From positions 1 to 64,000 of the forward strand of contig JAHFEW010000007.1 in the NCBI GenBank assembly GCA_023248215.1: a DNA stretch of 64,000 nucleotides. Direction: 5' to 3'. Of the stretch, positions 368-9,953 are shown piece by piece. A program made the translations under genes and the position numbers. Under the pieces are notes generated by a model that had not been told where the DNA came from, ran no database searches, and saw nothing but the letters and a program-made list of their open reading frames with translations. Numbering within the stretch: position 1 is the stretch's first letter; the number at the start of each line of letters is the position of its first letter. The DNA is from Nitrospira sp. (GTDB lineage: Bacteria > Nitrospirota > Nitrospiria > Nitrospirales > Nitrospiraceae).

Positions 368-1279
368 ATGGCGAACACCACTTCATCATCGGCCAGCAAG
401 GCGAAGGCGATGTCGTTACACATCGGCCTGAATGCGGTGAGCCCTGCCGCGTACGGTGGCTGGAGCGGCGAACTCGCTGCCTGTGAGTTCGATGCCAAGG
501 ATATGACGGCGATCGCCACATCGCGCGGCATGAAGTCCACCCTGCTGTTGACCAAGAAGGGTACACGCGCCCATGCCTTGGCTGCTATGCGAAAAGCCGC
601 CAAACAGTTGAGGAAGGGAGACTTCTTCTTCCTGACCTATTCGGGCCACGGCGGCCAGGTGCCAGACGTGACCGGAGAGGAAGCCGACAAGAAGGACGAA
701 ACGTGGTGCCTATACGACGGCCAGCTCATCGACGACGAGTTGTACTTCGAATTAAGCCGCTTCGCGGCCGGTGTGCGCATCCTGGTCCTGTCCGACAGTT
801 GCCATAGCGGCACCGTCACCCGTGCCATGCCACCGCAACTCGACGGCATCTTGTCGACCGGGCGCTCCAAAATGATGCCGCTCGCCGTCGGCATCCGCAC
901 CTATCGCGAACACCAGAAGTTTTACGACGACCTCCAACGAGACGTGGCGGAGGTGGCCGGAAAGGCTTCCGTGCCGGACCCGGACAGCATGCTCGCTCAG
1001 ATAGCCGTGAGCCCGCGGCTGACTGCGATTGCGAAACAGTTCAAACCGGCGGTGATTCTGATCTCAGGTTGTCAGGACAACCAGACCTCCCTGGACGGCG
1101 ACCACAACGGGGCATTCACGGAACAGTTGCTGAAGGTCTGGAACCATGGCGACTACCGCGGGAATTATGCAAAATTCCATGCCGCCATCAAGGCTGGGCT
1201 GCCGGCCAGTCAGACGCCCAACCTATTCACGCTTGGGGCAGCGGCGCGTTTTGCGCGGCAGCAGCCCTTCAATGTCTGA
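368..1279 (+). CDS. Caspase-family (metacaspase-like, C14) peptidase, 303 aa
   Basis: Cysteine peptidase of the caspase fold (clan CD). The catalytic pair is visible: His94 in YSGHGG and Cys145 in DSCHSG, each at the end of a hydrophobic strand, as in bacterial metacaspases. Residues about 15-290 make up the peptidase fold, including a late GAFTEQLL segment typical of the C14 C-terminal half. There is no signal peptide, membrane segment or attached adaptor domain, so this is a stand-alone cytoplasmic peptidase. The start is set by AAGGAGG just upstream. Substrate and role are unknown; bacterial relatives are discussed in stress or cell-death responses, but nothing here shows that. The neighbouring small genes may or may not be linked to it. 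Confidence 0.9.
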
Positions 1280-4388: not shown

Positions 4389-5327
4389 ATGCCTGAACGC
4401 ATCATCATTGAACGGCTGGAGTTTTACGGCCACTGCGGCGTCACGGAAGAGGAACGTCGGAAGGCGCAACTGATCGCCGTGGATCTGGAGCTGGAAGCTT
4501 CGGTCGAATCCGCCGCGATCTCGGATCGCCTCGACGAGACGATCGACTATGCCCGGGTGGCGGAACGTCTCGTTACCCTCAGCACATCGCTGGACTGTCG
4601 CCTGCTTGAAGCCCTGGCGGACAAGCTGGTCAGCATGTTGTTCGCCGAATTTTCGGTGGACCGGGTCCGCATCTGGATCCGCAAGCTGCACGCCCCGCTC
4701 GCCATGGTCGCCGGCTCGGTCGGCGTCCGATTCGAACGGACGCGCGCCGCGCACCAAGCGCAGAGCGCAGGACCCAGCCTCGCGCCGTTTCTCGTGCAAC
4801 AACTCGGGCGACTGCCCAAGGGCAGAGTTCTCGATGTGGCCGCCGGCCGTGGTCGTCATGCCCTCCATCTGCTGTCCCACGGCATGCAGGTCGAGGCCCT
4901 CGATCGAGACACAGAAGCGCTGGCCACGTTGGAGGCTGCAGCACAGGCGCGGCATCTCTCCGGGCTCACCACGCGAGTGCTCGATTTAGAACAGAACCCG
5001 GACAGACCACCCGGCCTGGGGCATGAGTGTTACGACGCCATCATCGTGTTCTTTTATCTGCATCGTCCGTTGTTCTCCGCGCTGATGGACGCATTGAAAC
5101 CGAACGGGGTACTGCTCTACGAAACCTTTACCATCGACAATTACTTCCGCTACCAGCATCCCCGCCGATGGGAATTCTGCCTGGCGCATAACGAACTGCT
5201 CCGCCTGACCTCTCCTTTGCGGGTGCTCCATTACGATGAAGGGGAACATGACGGAGGCCATGGCAGCGGACCATCCTATACCGCGCGGCTGGTCGCGCAG
5301 AAGGCGGGGCCTGAGACACCACCATGA
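4389..5327 (+). CDS. folB: FolB-SAM methyltransferase fusion, 312 aa
   Basis: Residues 1-118 are dihydroneopterin aldolase (tetrahydrofolate synthesis, splitting dihydroneopterin into 6-hydroxymethyl-dihydropterin and glycolaldehyde). Positions matching the known active site are kept: Glu22, Tyr53 in DYA, Glu73 in LLEAL and Lys98 in RKLHAP. Residues about 130-300 are a class I SAM-dependent methyltransferase of the TehB/UbiE-like type: motif I LDVAAGRGRH (Asp148-Gly154), an acidic LDRD after strand 2, and IIVFFYLHRP in the motif IV region. One uninterrupted frame covers both. Each half is of normal length, so this is a true fusion as far as the sequence shows. The methyl acceptor is unknown. 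The stop overlaps the next start (ATGA). Confidence 0.85.
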   Translation: MPERIIIERLEFYGHCGVTEEERRKAQLIAVDLELEASVESAAISDRLDETIDYARVAERLVTLSTSLDCRLLEALADKLVSMLFAEFSVDRVRIWIRKLHAPLAMVAGSVGVRFERTRAAHQAQSAGPSLAPFLVQQLGRLPKGRVLDVAAGRGRHALHLLSHGMQVEALDRDTEALATLEAAAQARHLSGLTTRVLDLEQNPDRPPGLGHECYDAIIVFFYLHRPLFSALMDALKPNGVLLYETFTIDNYFRYQHPRRWEFCLAHNELLRLTSPLRVLHYDEGEHDGGHGSGPSYTARLVAQKAGPETPP

Positions 5328-6172
5328 GTCGCATTGATCTCCATCTCCACACGACCCATTCGGACGGCAGCTTTTCCACCCGTGAGGTGATGACTTTTGC
5401 GAAACAAGCCGGCGTCACGGCCCTGGCGATCACCGATCACGACATTGTCGAGGGGATTCCGGAAGCCACCGCGATCGGAGCGGAACTCGGCATCGAAGTC
5501 ATTCCCGGCGTGGAAATCAGTTCGCGACTCGGCGAGAGCGAACTCCATATCCTCGGCTATTTTTTGAACTGGACTGATCCCCTGTTGGAACAACGCCTGG
5601 TCAGCTTGCGAGAGAGCCGCCACACCCGGAATCCCAAAATCGTCCAACGCCTCAATGAGCTGGGCATCCCCATCACCTATGAAGAGGTGCGTGCACTGGC
5701 CGGCACGGAATCCGTCGGTCGTCCCCACATCGCCCGCCTGTTGATGGAGAAAAAATTCGTTACCTCGGCCAAGGAAGCCTTCGATCGGTATTTGGCAAAT
5801 GGTCGTCCCGCCTTCGTCGATCGCGAGCTGCCCGAACCGGCTGAGGCTGTGCGATGGATTCGCGAAGCCGGGGGCGTGCCGGTCCTCGCCCATCCGACCT
5901 GGGTCAGAACATCCGCGGAGGGCTTGCGCACCCTGCTTCGACAGCTGAAAGAAGCCGGGTTGGGAGGCATCGAAGTCCACTACAGCACGCACAGCCCCAG
6001 CCAAACCGCCGAATACCTGGACCTCGCCAAACAATGCGACCTCCTCGTGACAGGAGGGAGCGATTTCCATGGCGTCACCAAACCCGACATCGAAGTCGGC
6101 ATCGGACGGGGCCAGTTGAAGGTATCCGAGAAACTGCTCGACCCGCTTAGAAAAGCCGCGACCCCTGCCTGA
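5324..6172 (+). CDS. PHP-domain phosphoesterase (YciV/RNase AM-like), 282 aa
   Basis: The PHP metal site is evident: DLHLHTTHSDG (His7, His9, Asp14), then AITDHD near 36-41, GVEIS near 64, a later LAHPTW and finally GGSDFHG near 245. Order and length (about 280) match the YciV/TrpH family, which dephosphorylates 3',5'-nucleoside bisphosphates and trims short RNA 5' ends. Three metals are expected. The gene overlaps the folB fusion by four bases, so the two are translationally coupled; a functional link between them is not obvious. Confidence 0.85.
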   Translation: MSRIDLHLHTTHSDGSFSTREVMTFAKQAGVTALAITDHDIVEGIPEATAIGAELGIEVIPGVEISSRLGESELHILGYFLNWTDPLLEQRLVSLRESRHTRNPKIVQRLNELGIPITYEEVRALAGTESVGRPHIARLLMEKKFVTSAKEAFDRYLANGRPAFVDRELPEPAEAVRWIREAGGVPVLAHPTWVRTSAEGLRTLLRQLKEAGLGGIEVHYSTHSPSQTAEYLDLAKQCDLLVTGGSDFHGVTKPDIEVGIGRGQLKVSEKLLDPLRKAATPA

Positions 6173-6323: not shown

Positions 6324-7736
6324 ATGACCACATCCTGGGGCTGGATCGGCCCGTATCTAATCGTCATCATCCTGGCCATTCTGGTGGGGCCGTTTCTGGC
6401 CACGCTCCCGCTGTTCACGCACACCTTTGTCCCGCCGTTGGGTATGAATGCCGCGCAGGCGGTTCGATTCGTCGCGGACAGCCTGTGCCTGCTGATGATC
6501 TGGCTCGCCGCCGCACGGGCAAGGCGGGAACTGCACGACAACGGCAAAGGACAAACCTTCTTCCGCTCCATTCTCTCTCCGGCTGCATTCCTGCTGATCG
6601 TCCTCGTAGCCTCTCGGGCCTATGACGCGCATGGAATTCCGGTGCTCGGACCCCCTAAGCAACCGCTCTACAATTGGCTGCTCACCGGCGGCCTCATCGG
6701 CTCAGCCACCTGGCTGACGTTCGCCTGGGTTCGCCATGCCGACGCGTTGACTCAGGCCCTCGTCGGACGCCCGCGTCGTCGCCCGGTCGAAGAGGAAGAT
6801 GAGCAAGAGGACGCAACAGCAACCGAAGCCCTCCGCAGCTCCGACAACGTGTCTCCCACCCCGGCTCGTTCAACCGGCACGGTGGTCGTCCGCACCGGCG
6901 CTGGCGTGCCGGCCACGCTGGGGCGGTATCACGTCGTCAAGGAACTCGGGCGCGGGGCGATGGGTGTCGTGTACCTGGGCAAAGATCCGACGATCCAACG
7001 CTTCGTCGCCATCAAGACCATGCGGTTGGACGAAATCGACAACGAAGAAGACCTGAAAGAATTCCGGGACCGATTCTTTCGCGAAGCGGAATCGACCGGG
7101 CGTCTGTCTCACCCCAACATTGTGACGGTGTACGACGCGGGCGAGCAGGATGGCCTAGCCTACATTGCCATGGAATATCTCGAAGGCACGTTGCTCAGCT
7201 GCTATTGCCAGAAATCGACGATCCTGCCCGCGAAACAGGCCCTGCAGATCGTGGCCACCGTCGCCGATGCCCTCGACTATGCCCACAGCCAGGGCGTCGT
7301 CCATCGCGACGTCAAACCCGCCAACATCATGATCCTGAAACAGCGCCTCGTGAAGGTGATGGATTTCGGTATTGCCAAAATGGCCAGCGCCTCGAAGACC
7401 CAGACCAGCATGATTCTCGGCACCCCGCGGTACATGTCGCCCGAACAGGCCACCGGTAAAGACGTGGACGGCCGGTCCGATGTGTTCTCCCTGGGCATCG
7501 TACTGTTCGAACTCTTGAGCGGCGAGCGACCGTTCGATGCCGAGAACATGGCGGCGCTCGTGATGCGCATCGCGAAGGCCCCGCATCCCCCGTTGCTCAA
7601 ATATCGCCGTGATCTGCCGACGCGGGTCCAATCCATCCTGGATCGAGCGCTGCAGAAAGAGATCCCCAACCGATACCGTCACGCCAGCGACATGGCCCAA
7701 GACCTTCGTGACGTCTTCCAGGTGATGCCGAGATAG
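6324..7736 (+). CDS. Membrane Ser/Thr protein kinase, PknB-type, 470 aa
   Basis: The N-terminal 135 residues carry four hydrophobic segments (about 10-32, 48-65, 83-100, 112-132), then a charged, Pro/Thr-rich linker. A complete Hanks-type kinase fills residues 202-465: GRGAMGVVY, Lys231 in AIK, HRD at 327-329, DFG at 347-349 and a GTPRYMSPEQ activation segment. This is the reverse of classical PknB, where the kinase comes first and a single helix and PASTA repeats follow. With no sizeable extracytoplasmic domain, the input is probably sensed in the membrane or by partners. The phosphatase gene follows after eight bases and the FHA gene after that. Confidence 0.92.
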   Translation: MTTSWGWIGPYLIVIILAILVGPFLATLPLFTHTFVPPLGMNAAQAVRFVADSLCLLMIWLAAARARRELHDNGKGQTFFRSILSPAAFLLIVLVASRAYDAHGIPVLGPPKQPLYNWLLTGGLIGSATWLTFAWVRHADALTQALVGRPRRRPVEEEDEQEDATATEALRSSDNVSPTPARSTGTVVVRTGAGVPATLGRYHVVKELGRGAMGVVYLGKDPTIQRFVAIKTMRLDEIDNEEDLKEFRDRFFREAESTGRLSHPNIVTVYDAGEQDGLAYIAMEYLEGTLLSCYCQKSTILPAKQALQIVATVADALDYAHSQGVVHRDVKPANIMILKQRLVKVMDFGIAKMASASKTQTSMILGTPRYMSPEQATGKDVDGRSDVFSLGIVLFELLSGERPFDAENMAALVMRIAKAPHPPLLKYRRDLPTRVQSILDRALQKEIPNRYRHASDMAQDLRDVFQVMPR

Positions 7737-7744
7737 AGCCGGCC

Positions 7745-8581
7745 ATGCACTCCTTGCAGCTCACATATGGGGCCTCATCAGATGTCGGCCTCACGCGCCG
7801 GCACAATGAAGACCGGTTTCATGCCGATCCCTCCACCGGCCTGTTCATTGTGTGCGACGGAATGGGCGGCCACCGGGCAGGTGAAGTCGCCAGCAGCCGC
7901 GCCATCGAGATCATCCCCCGTCACCTCGCAGAGTCCACCGCCGATCCCTCTCTCCCCCTGATCGGCGTCTCGCGTCCTGAGTTTTCCACTGCGACCAACC
8001 GGCTGGCCAGCGCCGTCCGGCTGGCCAATCATACGGTTCATCAAGAGGCGGCACGTCACGCCGCGTACACCGGAATGGGCACCACGGTAGTGGCCGCTTG
8101 GCTCGTCGGGCATGTCCTGTCGATCGCCCACGTGGGCGACAGCCGCCTATATCTGATTCGGGGCGACCTGCTCCACCCGCTCACAGACGACCATTCGCTG
8201 GTACAGGCGCAAGTGCAGTCGGGGCTCTTGGCCGCCGACGATGCCGAGCGCGTGTCACACAAACATGTGTTGACCCGCGCCGTCGGGGTCCATGCCACCG
8301 TGGAGGTCGAATTGGCAGAACTCCCCGTGTTGGACGGCGATACCTTGCTGCTCTGTTCCGATGGCCTAACCGCCGGAGTTTCCGCAAACACCATCCTCCG
8401 CGTCATTCACGAATCGCCCGACCCGCAGACCGTTTCTGACCGTCTCATCGCCCTCTCGAATGCCGCCGGTGGAACCGACAATACGACCGTCATCGTGGCG
8501 ACGCTCACCCGGAGCAAGCCAGGAATGTGGAACCGGATTCGCGCCCATCTGTTCGCTGCACCTACAACCGACTCATACTAA
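7745..8581 (+). CDS. PP2C-type Ser/Thr phosphatase (PrpC/Stp1-like), 278 aa
   Basis: Metal-dependent phosphatase expected to reverse the upstream kinase. Motifs in order: RRHNEDR (N-terminal metal ligand), CDGMGGHRAGE, GMGTTVVAAW, HVGDSRLY, LCSDGLT and GGTDNTTVIV, covering the usual eleven PP2C motifs over about residues 5-260. No membrane segment, so it is cytoplasmic. The C-terminal 20 residues are basic and outside the domain. Its place between kinase and FHA gene makes a writer-eraser-reader set. Confidence 0.92.
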   Translation: MHSLQLTYGASSDVGLTRRHNEDRFHADPSTGLFIVCDGMGGHRAGEVASSRAIEIIPRHLAESTADPSLPLIGVSRPEFSTATNRLASAVRLANHTVHQEAARHAAYTGMGTTVVAAWLVGHVLSIAHVGDSRLYLIRGDLLHPLTDDHSLVQAQVQSGLLAADDAERVSHKHVLTRAVGVHATVEVELAELPVLDGDTLLLCSDGLTAGVSANTILRVIHESPDPQTVSDRLIALSNAAGGTDNTTVIVATLTRSKPGMWNRIRAHLFAAPTTDSY

Positions 8582-8590
8582 GGAGCGACC

Positions 8591-9322
8591 ATGTCCCAGA
8601 ACCAAGCCCCATCGCCCACGCTCCTCGTCAAGGCACCGCAAGGCGGGACAAAGGAGATCGAGGTCTCCCGTACGCCCTTCACGATCGGGCGTAAGTACGA
8701 CAACGACCTGTGCCTGGAAGACATCGCCGTCTCAGGGCACCATGCGCGCATCGCCAAGGTACAGGAAGTCCTGTTTTTGGAGGATCTCACGAGCACGAAC
8801 GGCACGTTCGTCAATGAGCAGAAGATCGACCGGCGACAACTTCAGGATGCCGACAGCATCCGCATCGGCACACACCGTTTGATTTTTCGAGGGAACCAAC
8901 TGACACAGGCGGACTCACCGCCGGCAGGCGATCTCCTGATCGCCGACAAAACGATGGTCGTCTCAGAATCGTTTGTCGGTGAACGCCCGGCGCCGGAGCA
9001 GAGGATCGGTCTGGTAGAAATCCTATCGGGCAAGACTGATCAACCGCAGTATCGGCTGACGAAACACGTCTCGCTGATCGGGGCACAAGACGATGCGGTC
9101 ATCACGCTCACCGGCTGGTTTGCGCCCAAGACCGCGGCGGTGATCAGCCGGCGGGGCGATCGGTACGTGGTGAGCCCGACGGAGAGCGGGAAACGCATCC
9201 TCGTCAACGGCCGACCTGTTCAAGGAGAGCACACGCTCCGGAACGGAGACGTGGTGGAAGTGGCCGGCATCACGATGCGTTTTCTTGTGCGCGGCCTGAA
9301 GAAAGCCCCCGCGCCTCGCTAG
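8591..9322 (+). CDS. Double FHA-domain protein, 243 aa
   Basis: The first FHA domain (about residues 25-100) has the phosphothreonine-binding pattern: IGRKYDND, SGHHA and STNGTFVN. The second (about 155-235) keeps the fold outline (LIGAQDD, ISRRGDRY, ILVNG) but the Ser-x-x-His element is altered, so it may not bind phosphothreonine. The linker between them contains Thr/Ser that could be targets of the kinase two genes upstream. AAGGAG precedes the ATG. Cytoplasmic reader of the kinase signal (inference from context). Confidence 0.9.
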   Translation: MSQNQAPSPTLLVKAPQGGTKEIEVSRTPFTIGRKYDNDLCLEDIAVSGHHARIAKVQEVLFLEDLTSTNGTFVNEQKIDRRQLQDADSIRIGTHRLIFRGNQLTQADSPPAGDLLIADKTMVVSESFVGERPAPEQRIGLVEILSGKTDQPQYRLTKHVSLIGAQDDAVITLTGWFAPKTAAVISRRGDRYVVSPTESGKRILVNGRPVQGEHTLRNGDVVEVAGITMRFLVRGLKKAPAPR

Positions 9323-9344
9323 CCGGCATGCATCATGCGGGCTA
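9320..9344. terminator. Shared hairpin holding both convergent stop codons
   Basis: TAGCCGGCATG (9320-9330) and CATGCGGGCTA (9334-9344) pair over 11 bases with one mismatch around CAT. The TAG of the FHA gene is the first three bases; the TAG of the minus-strand gene is the last three, read in reverse. No T-tract on either side, so termination is uncertain. Confidence 0.45.
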
Positions 9345-9953
9345 ATTCAGCAGCCGGCCGCGTTTGGGCAAGAATTGAAAGCATTGGTCCGAGACTTCCT
9401 GAGCATGGGATTCCAAACACTGGACGATCGCCCCTCCGCTTAACGGCACGTCGCGACAATACTGTCTTCGGTCTGCCTCGCAGGCCGCACGCAGATGCTG
9501 CATGTTCTCTTTCATTCGCACGAGCCGCTCGCGGAGAACCGGCTGGCAGGGAATAGACAGTTGCGCCGCTTTGCGTTGCAGGCAGATCCGCCGTTCTCCC
9601 TCTTCCTCGGGACAAAGCGTGTCCATTTCCATATCGCATTTCACATCCATCCCGAAAGGACGTCGTAAGGCCGCAGACGCGGGCCGTCCCAATGGCGCCG
9701 GAAGAGCGGCTGGCGTCTCCTCCTTCACCATCACCGGCGAAGCGGAATGATCGGGCGACGACGCGACGGGAAGACTCAGATCTGGAGATGATGGCGGTGT
9801 CGGCGGTGGAAGGGACAGGGCTCGCGGCGAAGGGTCCGGCAGATTGTCGCTCTGCGGCAATAGGTAGATGATGAGACCCCAGACCGCACCCAACACCACA
9901 CAGCTGAGCACCGTGACAATGAGGATGGCGCCGAATCGCGATGGCCCAGCCAA
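9342..9953 (-). CDS. Membrane-anchored Cys-rich repeat protein (GLG1/FGFR-type), 203 aa
   Basis: A single hydrophobic segment at about residues 8-31 is followed by a long Pro/Ser-rich linker and a C-terminal region with regularly spaced cysteines: CDMEMDTLC, CLQRKAAQLSIPC, CEADRRQYC, QCLESH and QCFQF. The pattern C-x3-D-x3-C...CL...C is that of the Cys_rich_FGFR repeat known from the Golgi glycoprotein GLG1 and also seen in bacterial exported proteins. The Cys-rich part is expected in the periplasm, with disulfides. A second protein of the same type is encoded at 36771-37124. Function unknown. Confidence 0.75.
   Translation of the reverse strand: MAGPSRFGAILIVTVLSCVVLGAVWGLIIYLLPQSDNLPDPSPRALSLPPPTPPSSPDLSLPVASSPDHSASPVMVKEETPAALPAPLGRPASAALRRPFGMDVKCDMEMDTLCPEEEGERRICLQRKAAQLSIPCQPVLRERLVRMKENMQHLRAACEADRRQYCRDVPLSGGAIVQCLESHAQEVSDQCFQFLPKRGRLLN

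Follow-up and report, generated by a model that had tools for sequence, protein, structure and literature searches.

We demonstrate here that, in bacteria of the order Nitrospirales, the folate enzyme dihydroneopterin aldolase (FolB) is fused to a C-terminal methyltransferase of the class I, SAM-dependent type. This is a true gene fusion, old and maintained by selection. FolB is a well-studied enzyme, normally found alone or joined to its pathway neighbors, and the fusion constitutes a real and conserved architecture of this known enzyme for which we found no published description. We favor, as the probable reading, a bifunctional protein in which an aldolase serving folate synthesis and an independent small-molecule methyltransferase were joined by a single early fusion. 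No description of a FolB–methyltransferase fusion was found in titles and abstracts or in passages of two articles (PMC1971073, PMC3223725). Whereas the Nitrospira protein bears an extra C-terminal methyltransferase, the described FolB fusions are those with FolK, mentioned in a comparative study of folate genes whose main text does not contain the word "methyltransferase" (PMC1971073), or with FolK and FolP, the folB-folK-folP fusion being the subject of another article (PMC4224340).

Architecture of the Fused Gene

The fused gene lies on the forward strand of the window (i.e., the whole stretch of Nitrospira sp. DNA analyzed, 64,000 nucleotides) and presents the following features:

4389..5327, + strand: fused gene, FolB plus class I SAM methyltransferase, 312 amino acids plus stop
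4389..4742, + strand: FolB domain, residues 1-118 (Pfam, NCBIfam, and DHNA structure matches)
4452 (E22), 4548 (Y54), 4608 (E74), and 4683 (K99), + strand: starts of the FolB signature codons (from the alignment)
4743..4781, + strand: variable short linker, residues 119-131 (averaging 37% pairwise identity)
4782..5306, + strand: methyltransferase domain, residues 132-306 (start about 130)
4827-4856, + strand: SAM motif VLDVAAGRGR, residues 147-156 (from the alignment)
4902-4904, + strand: acidic residue D172 (from the alignment)
5118-5129, + strand: YETF motif, residues 244-247 (from the alignment)
5157-5201, + strand: HPRRWEFCLAHNELL motif, residues 257-271 (from the alignment)

The gene at 4389-5327 is read in a single frame, from ATG to TGA, over 312 codons and with no internal stop. 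The original prediction of a FolB–methyltransferase fusion with both halves complete is thus borne out by one open frame and by family matches for each half. In the AlphaFold model, the protein folds into two confident domains (mean pLDDT 84.3), with a helix at residues 119-126 in the linker; the pTM of 0.60 leaves the relative placement of the two domains unsure.

The N-terminal half is, by all these comparisons, a full dihydroneopterin aldolase domain that passes both curated cut-offs and keeps the signature residues. Residues 5-115 match Pfam FolB (PF02152; 2.5e-27, 96.1 bits for a cut-off of 31.8), residues 4-116 match NCBIfam TIGR00525 folB (83.7 bits for a cut-off of 72.15), and a structure search retrieved DHNA structures with a Z of about 17. 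The residues E22, Y54, E74, and K99, invariant in 59 diverse fused sequences, align with the conserved Glu, Tyr, Glu, and Lys of E. coli FolB, and we take them to be the catalytic residues of the aldolase active site. Titles of Yersinia DHNA structure entries name Tyr53 and Lys98 mutants.

The C-terminal half exceeds the cut-offs of three Pfam families, i.e., Methyltransf_25 (PF13649; residues 147-240, 1.1e-7), TehB (PF03848; residues 144-234, 1.5e-7), and Methyltransf_11. D149, G155, D172, E245, P258, and E269 are invariant in the 59 fused sequences and G153 is nearly so; VLDVAAGRGR is presumably motif I and D172 the acidic residue, with roles as in class I methyltransferases. The best structural match is Slr1183 (3mer; Z 23.5, 1.8 A over 167), followed by the TehB structures 2i6g, 2xva, and 4dq0 (Z 22.2). 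Hence, this half has in common with the TehB/Slr1183 class I methyltransferases the fold (Z 22-23.5), the SAM motif, and the Pfam matches, although it is only 20-25% identical to the solved structures. A TehB function (tellurite resistance) by name was rejected, since the scores against the three NCBIfam TehB equivalogs (37.5, 35.9, and 28.5 bits) are far below their cut-offs (218, 303, and 219.5), and we found no evidence of tellurite as the target of the fused methyltransferase.

Both halves are under comparable constraint. For the genus group, a set of 37 sequences in which certain species are represented by near-copies, the median dN/dS is 0.105 for the FolB half and 0.106 for the methyltransferase half; these ratios are rough, synonymous change being around one per site, and they were computed over 591 of the 666 pairs, the other 75 having been excluded for a synonymous change outside 0.1-2. 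Among the fused sequences, full conservation is seen at 16 positions of residues 1-118 and at 34 of residues 132-304, and the mean pairwise identity is 57% over residues 4-118 versus 63% over residues 132-304. The equal dN/dS and the share of invariant residues rule out a decaying methyltransferase half. Moreover, the retention of the signature residues together with this equal constraint suggests, at the sequence level, that both halves should work.

Distribution of the Fusion

A full-length fused match was present in 58 of 61 genomes, the source genome counted, with identities down to 38% (G035, G036, and G049 gave no match). When 198 genomes were drawn evenly across Nitrospirota, each of the 56 Nitrospirales had one match covering both halves, and no listed match from the 142 other Nitrospirota did so; the restriction to Nitrospirales is thus a statement about Nitrospirota, the phylum within which the comparison was made. 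A plasmid search matched five Haloferax methyltransferases. No Nitrospirales genome with the halves as separate genes was seen among the 56 drawn or the 58 matched.

At the level of loci, 119 of 120 of the fused type were re-read as a fusion, the exception (L099) starting within the gene at a contig edge. A contig scan for relatives, based on one peptide pattern and keeping the best 80 of 183, gave 79 loci readable across both domains, L099 again being the exception. These loci are labelled as Nitrospira or other Nitrospirota, except one labelled Nitrosospira (L087, 81% identical to the query). One stop was reported in the matching stretch of some genomes (G048, G031, G056, G058, and G059), and re-reading of G048 (L186) found a frame open through both domains.

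A search for the FolB family matched 206 of 210 genomes of the order, all except G266, G315, G049, and G284, the last having a stated completeness of 99%. Among the 150 matches listed, 147 sit in open frames of at least 300 amino acids, a length consistent with the fusion but, taken alone, no proof of it. Two of the short frames (G323 and G345) are cut by contig ends past the FolB domain, and the remaining one, from G332, is a stand-alone FolB adjoining folK. This last FolB (L169, about 1805-2583) is of another type and perhaps represents a transfer or a contamination.

The original prediction had named relatives with separate genes as the sign of an artefactual junction. Relatives across the order carry the fusion, and such an artefact is excluded: full-length fused homologues occur throughout Nitrospirales, and the identical fusion recurs in dozens of independent assemblies, in some within a single contig. 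We accordingly give an assembly or sequencing error virtually no credit.

Free Relatives and Origin of the Fusion

Methyltransferases of the same family also exist unfused. We aligned 13 free Nitrospirota proteins with the fused half and found 32-51% identity and motifs in common, the five aligned f17 and f19 sequences being 43-51% identical. These proteins, for which we found no name, differ from the fused form in being about 170-230 amino acids long and encoded apart from folB where both genes could be placed; in G220, for instance, free methyltransferase and free FolB lie 216 kb apart on one contig. Since the family also occurs in free form with the common motifs, its reaction need not involve FolB. 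Some Nitrospirales genomes, at least G057, G044, and G187, keep a free paralogue in addition to the fusion. Near the paralogues of G057 and G044, a shared gene of ~500 amino acids carries a second methyltransferase domain (L062, 2673-4190; L073, 2068-3561), with a Haem_oxygenas_2 gene between paralogue and ~500-amino-acid gene in L073.

A methyltransferase tree was built from 51 rows, 26 of them fused, and one branch separates all the fused rows from the others (support 81/54; recovered in 78% of 200 bootstrap trees). A single fusion event is thus likely, albeit with low support, and probably preceded the split of the Nitrospirales families f1-f4. The fusion would have been made once, from a methyltransferase gene that is still separate in other Nitrospirota, and then kept.

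An alternative is a merger devoid of functional meaning, produced by chance and never undone. Fusions can be neutral, and the free relatives have no common neighbor. Against this stand the lack of separate halves among the 56 drawn and 58 matched genomes and the equal constraint on both halves, two points that are nevertheless compatible with the neutral joining of two needed enzymes. We hold such a chance merger to be very improbable.

Folate Genes and Genomic Context

The source genome has one FolB match, the fusion itself, so that the second folB which the original prediction proposed to look for was not found there. Family searches also gave a single FolE and a single FolK, together with two Pterin_bind matches, namely a FolP-like frame of 306 amino acids and a frame of 1231 amino acids that is, by its length, probably MetH. 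The fusion hence appears to provide the aldolase of an ordinary folate pathway.

The neighborhood of the fused and free genes was analyzed with E. coli queries taken from whole pathways. These queries are insensitive for small proteins, and the counts below are thus lower bounds, for test loci and controls alike. In the source window, none of 18 queries, E. coli FolB included, gave a match at 1e-6. Elsewhere, moaC-moaE-moaA stands head-to-head with the fusion in seven f2 loci and two of five f3 loci, often with folC behind; in L182 (f2, a 3.4-kb contig), moaC alone is visible. Of the 61 contig-scan loci with an upstream sequence of 4 kb or more, 22 carry moaC within 4 kb of the fusion on that side. 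It is rare near the source genus, where it was seen in only two (L078 and L081, 4-5 kb off) of the 12 loci L077-L088. The row moaC-moaE-moaA was observed upstream of the fusion in L089, L094, L100, L136, L140, L145, and L151-L156, and further in L175-L177, L183-L185, L187, and L188. In f4, folD or metF adjoins the fusion in four of four loci, L178 showing the row folD, metF, a class II tRNA synthetase gene, and panB.

This f4 arrangement bears on a regulatory role, in which the methyltransferase half would bind SAM mainly to tune the aldolase and would so couple folate to the methyl cycle. Methionine and SAM draw on the one-carbon units of folate, and the SAM-site residues are conserved. On the other hand, residues in YLxR, YETF, and HPRRxEFCLxHNELL, which lie outside the SAM site, equal the SAM motif in conservation among the fused forms and are partly kept in the free forms too, whereas a mere sensor would need none of them. 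This equal conservation makes SAM control of the aldolase less likely, and we consider it quite improbable.

For the free methyltransferases, gcvT was found in five of six f19 loci (with gcvP in four) and folP in one of six; gcvT is also near in f6 and moeA in f5. The listed pterin and one-carbon genes were absent near the free methyltransferases of f7, f8, f10, f12, f17, and f30, and near the three free Nitrospirales paralogues. Thus, gcvT, folP, or moeA is near free relatives in three of nine lineages compared with two of the 78 stretches used as controls (Fisher p = 0.007), a value that is post hoc, as the moa, folD/metF, gcv, and moeA neighbors had been seen before the list was drawn up, and that concerns nine lineages only. 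The test loci are of uneven length (3.5-10 kb) and the controls of 9.5 kb, the latter placed by hand at round coordinates on long contigs of the same and related genomes (partly non-test genomes). A neighbor common to all free relatives was sought and none was seen, prmA adjoining the methyltransferase in f19 only: a PrmA-cluster gene does so in five of six f19 loci (identified by Pfam in one). In L045, L048, and L049, the free methyltransferase frame overlaps the end of prmA (ribosomal protein L11 methyltransferase).

Taken together, these neighborhoods point towards pterin, folate, or one-carbon metabolism, in a suggestive manner only. They are one ground for a further reading, in which the methyltransferase half would act on the substrate, the product, or a relative of the aldolase reaction and yield a methylated pterin. 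The fusion partner is FolB itself, the moa genes (f2, f3) and folD/metF (f4) adjoin the fusion, the free relatives of f5, f6, and f19 have the neighbors described above, and a heterocycle methyltransferase (7ndm, Z 19.5) is among the structural neighbors of the methyltransferase half. The leaning of the three lineages out of nine would argue for a related substrate rather than an independent one. However, FolB alone could explain the moa and fol neighbors of the fused gene, so that we rejected them as proof of pterin methylation; indeed, free folB of the outgroup is also near folC (five of nine loci, all five in f19). Six of the nine free lineages and the three paralogues lack such neighbors, as does the source window, with moaC in only two of the 12 loci L077-L088; the p value is weakened by its post hoc nature and its nine lineages, and 7ndm is no nearer than many other methyltransferases. 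We regard pterin methylation as a possible but rather unlikely activity; dihydroneopterin, its epimer, 6-hydroxymethyl-dihydropterin, or a molybdopterin precursor would be candidates for its substrate. The original prediction, which suggested a modified pterin or a regulation of the folate branch by SAM, is thus supported in part, i.e., for the true fusion, the completeness of both halves, and the lack of any other FolB match in the genome.

The Downstream PHP Gene

A second gene follows the fusion:

5324..6172, + strand: PHP-domain phosphatase-type gene (Pfam PHP, 2.6e-11)

Its start codon overlaps the stop codon of the fusion (ATGA, 5324-5327). Its top NCBIfam match is 3',5'-nucleoside bisphosphate phosphatase, with 226 bits for a cut-off of 400. 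Among 119 fused loci, which contain repeats of the same species, a PHP gene lies within 0.3 kb downstream in 118, with the start placed at the ATGA overlap in 95; the one exception ends two bases past the fused gene. The PHP gene also follows the fusion in five f3 loci fetched later. No PHP match was found in 11 f2 and f4 loci, six of which have at least 3.5 kb downstream, and the fusion is thus probably older than its pairing with the PHP gene.

According to the 2007 comparative study (PMC1971073), the last phosphate before the FolB step is believed to be removed by a non-specific phosphatase. The PHP enzyme is a candidate dihydroneopterin-phosphate phosphatase, or simply a pAp phosphatase, and its gene offers a testable candidate for the step that this study ascribes to a non-specific enzyme. 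A more daring combination would have Nitrospirales make a methylated pterin (or methylate a molybdopterin or folate intermediate) by a dedicated aldolase–methyltransferase, with the PHP enzyme providing the substrate of the aldolase as the missing dihydroneopterin-phosphate phosphatase. If true, three steps of a variant pterin route would be encoded together, by the fusion and the PHP gene; we judge this improbable.

Proposed Function of the Fusion

We retain as the probable reading the bifunctional enzyme with two independent activities. The four genomes of the order that gave no FolB match, G284 among them being nearly complete, weigh against it. The N-terminal half would be the dihydroneopterin aldolase of the cell, serving folate synthesis by converting 7,8-dihydroneopterin into 6-hydroxymethyl-7,8-dihydropterin and glycolaldehyde. 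The C-terminal half would be an active methyltransferase of the TehB/Slr1183 type, dependent on SAM and having a small-molecule substrate of its own. FolB structures form a ring assembly, on which the methyltransferase would probably be displayed, and the fusion would tie the amounts of both enzymes together. The data establish the fusion, its conservation, the equal constraint on its halves, and the presence of the other folate genes beside a single FolB match, whereas we infer the two activities, the ring scaffold, and the benefit of co-expression. Many of these bacteria oxidize nitrite by an enzyme requiring a pterin cofactor. A fusion selected across a whole order is a concrete lead to a new methylation step, which may belong to pterin or one-carbon metabolism.

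Other Features of the Window

Three further regions of the window were observed. At 368-1279 (+), a frame resembles a caspase-type peptidase (SGHGG and DSCHSG, by eye). At 6324-9322 (+), a Ser/Thr kinase (Pfam) is followed by PP2C-phosphatase-like and FHA-like frames, both recognized by eye. The Cys_rich_FGFR domain is best known from eukaryotic Golgi proteins, and a protein encoded at 9342-9953 (-) carries a match to this repeat (Pfam, 2.5e-5).
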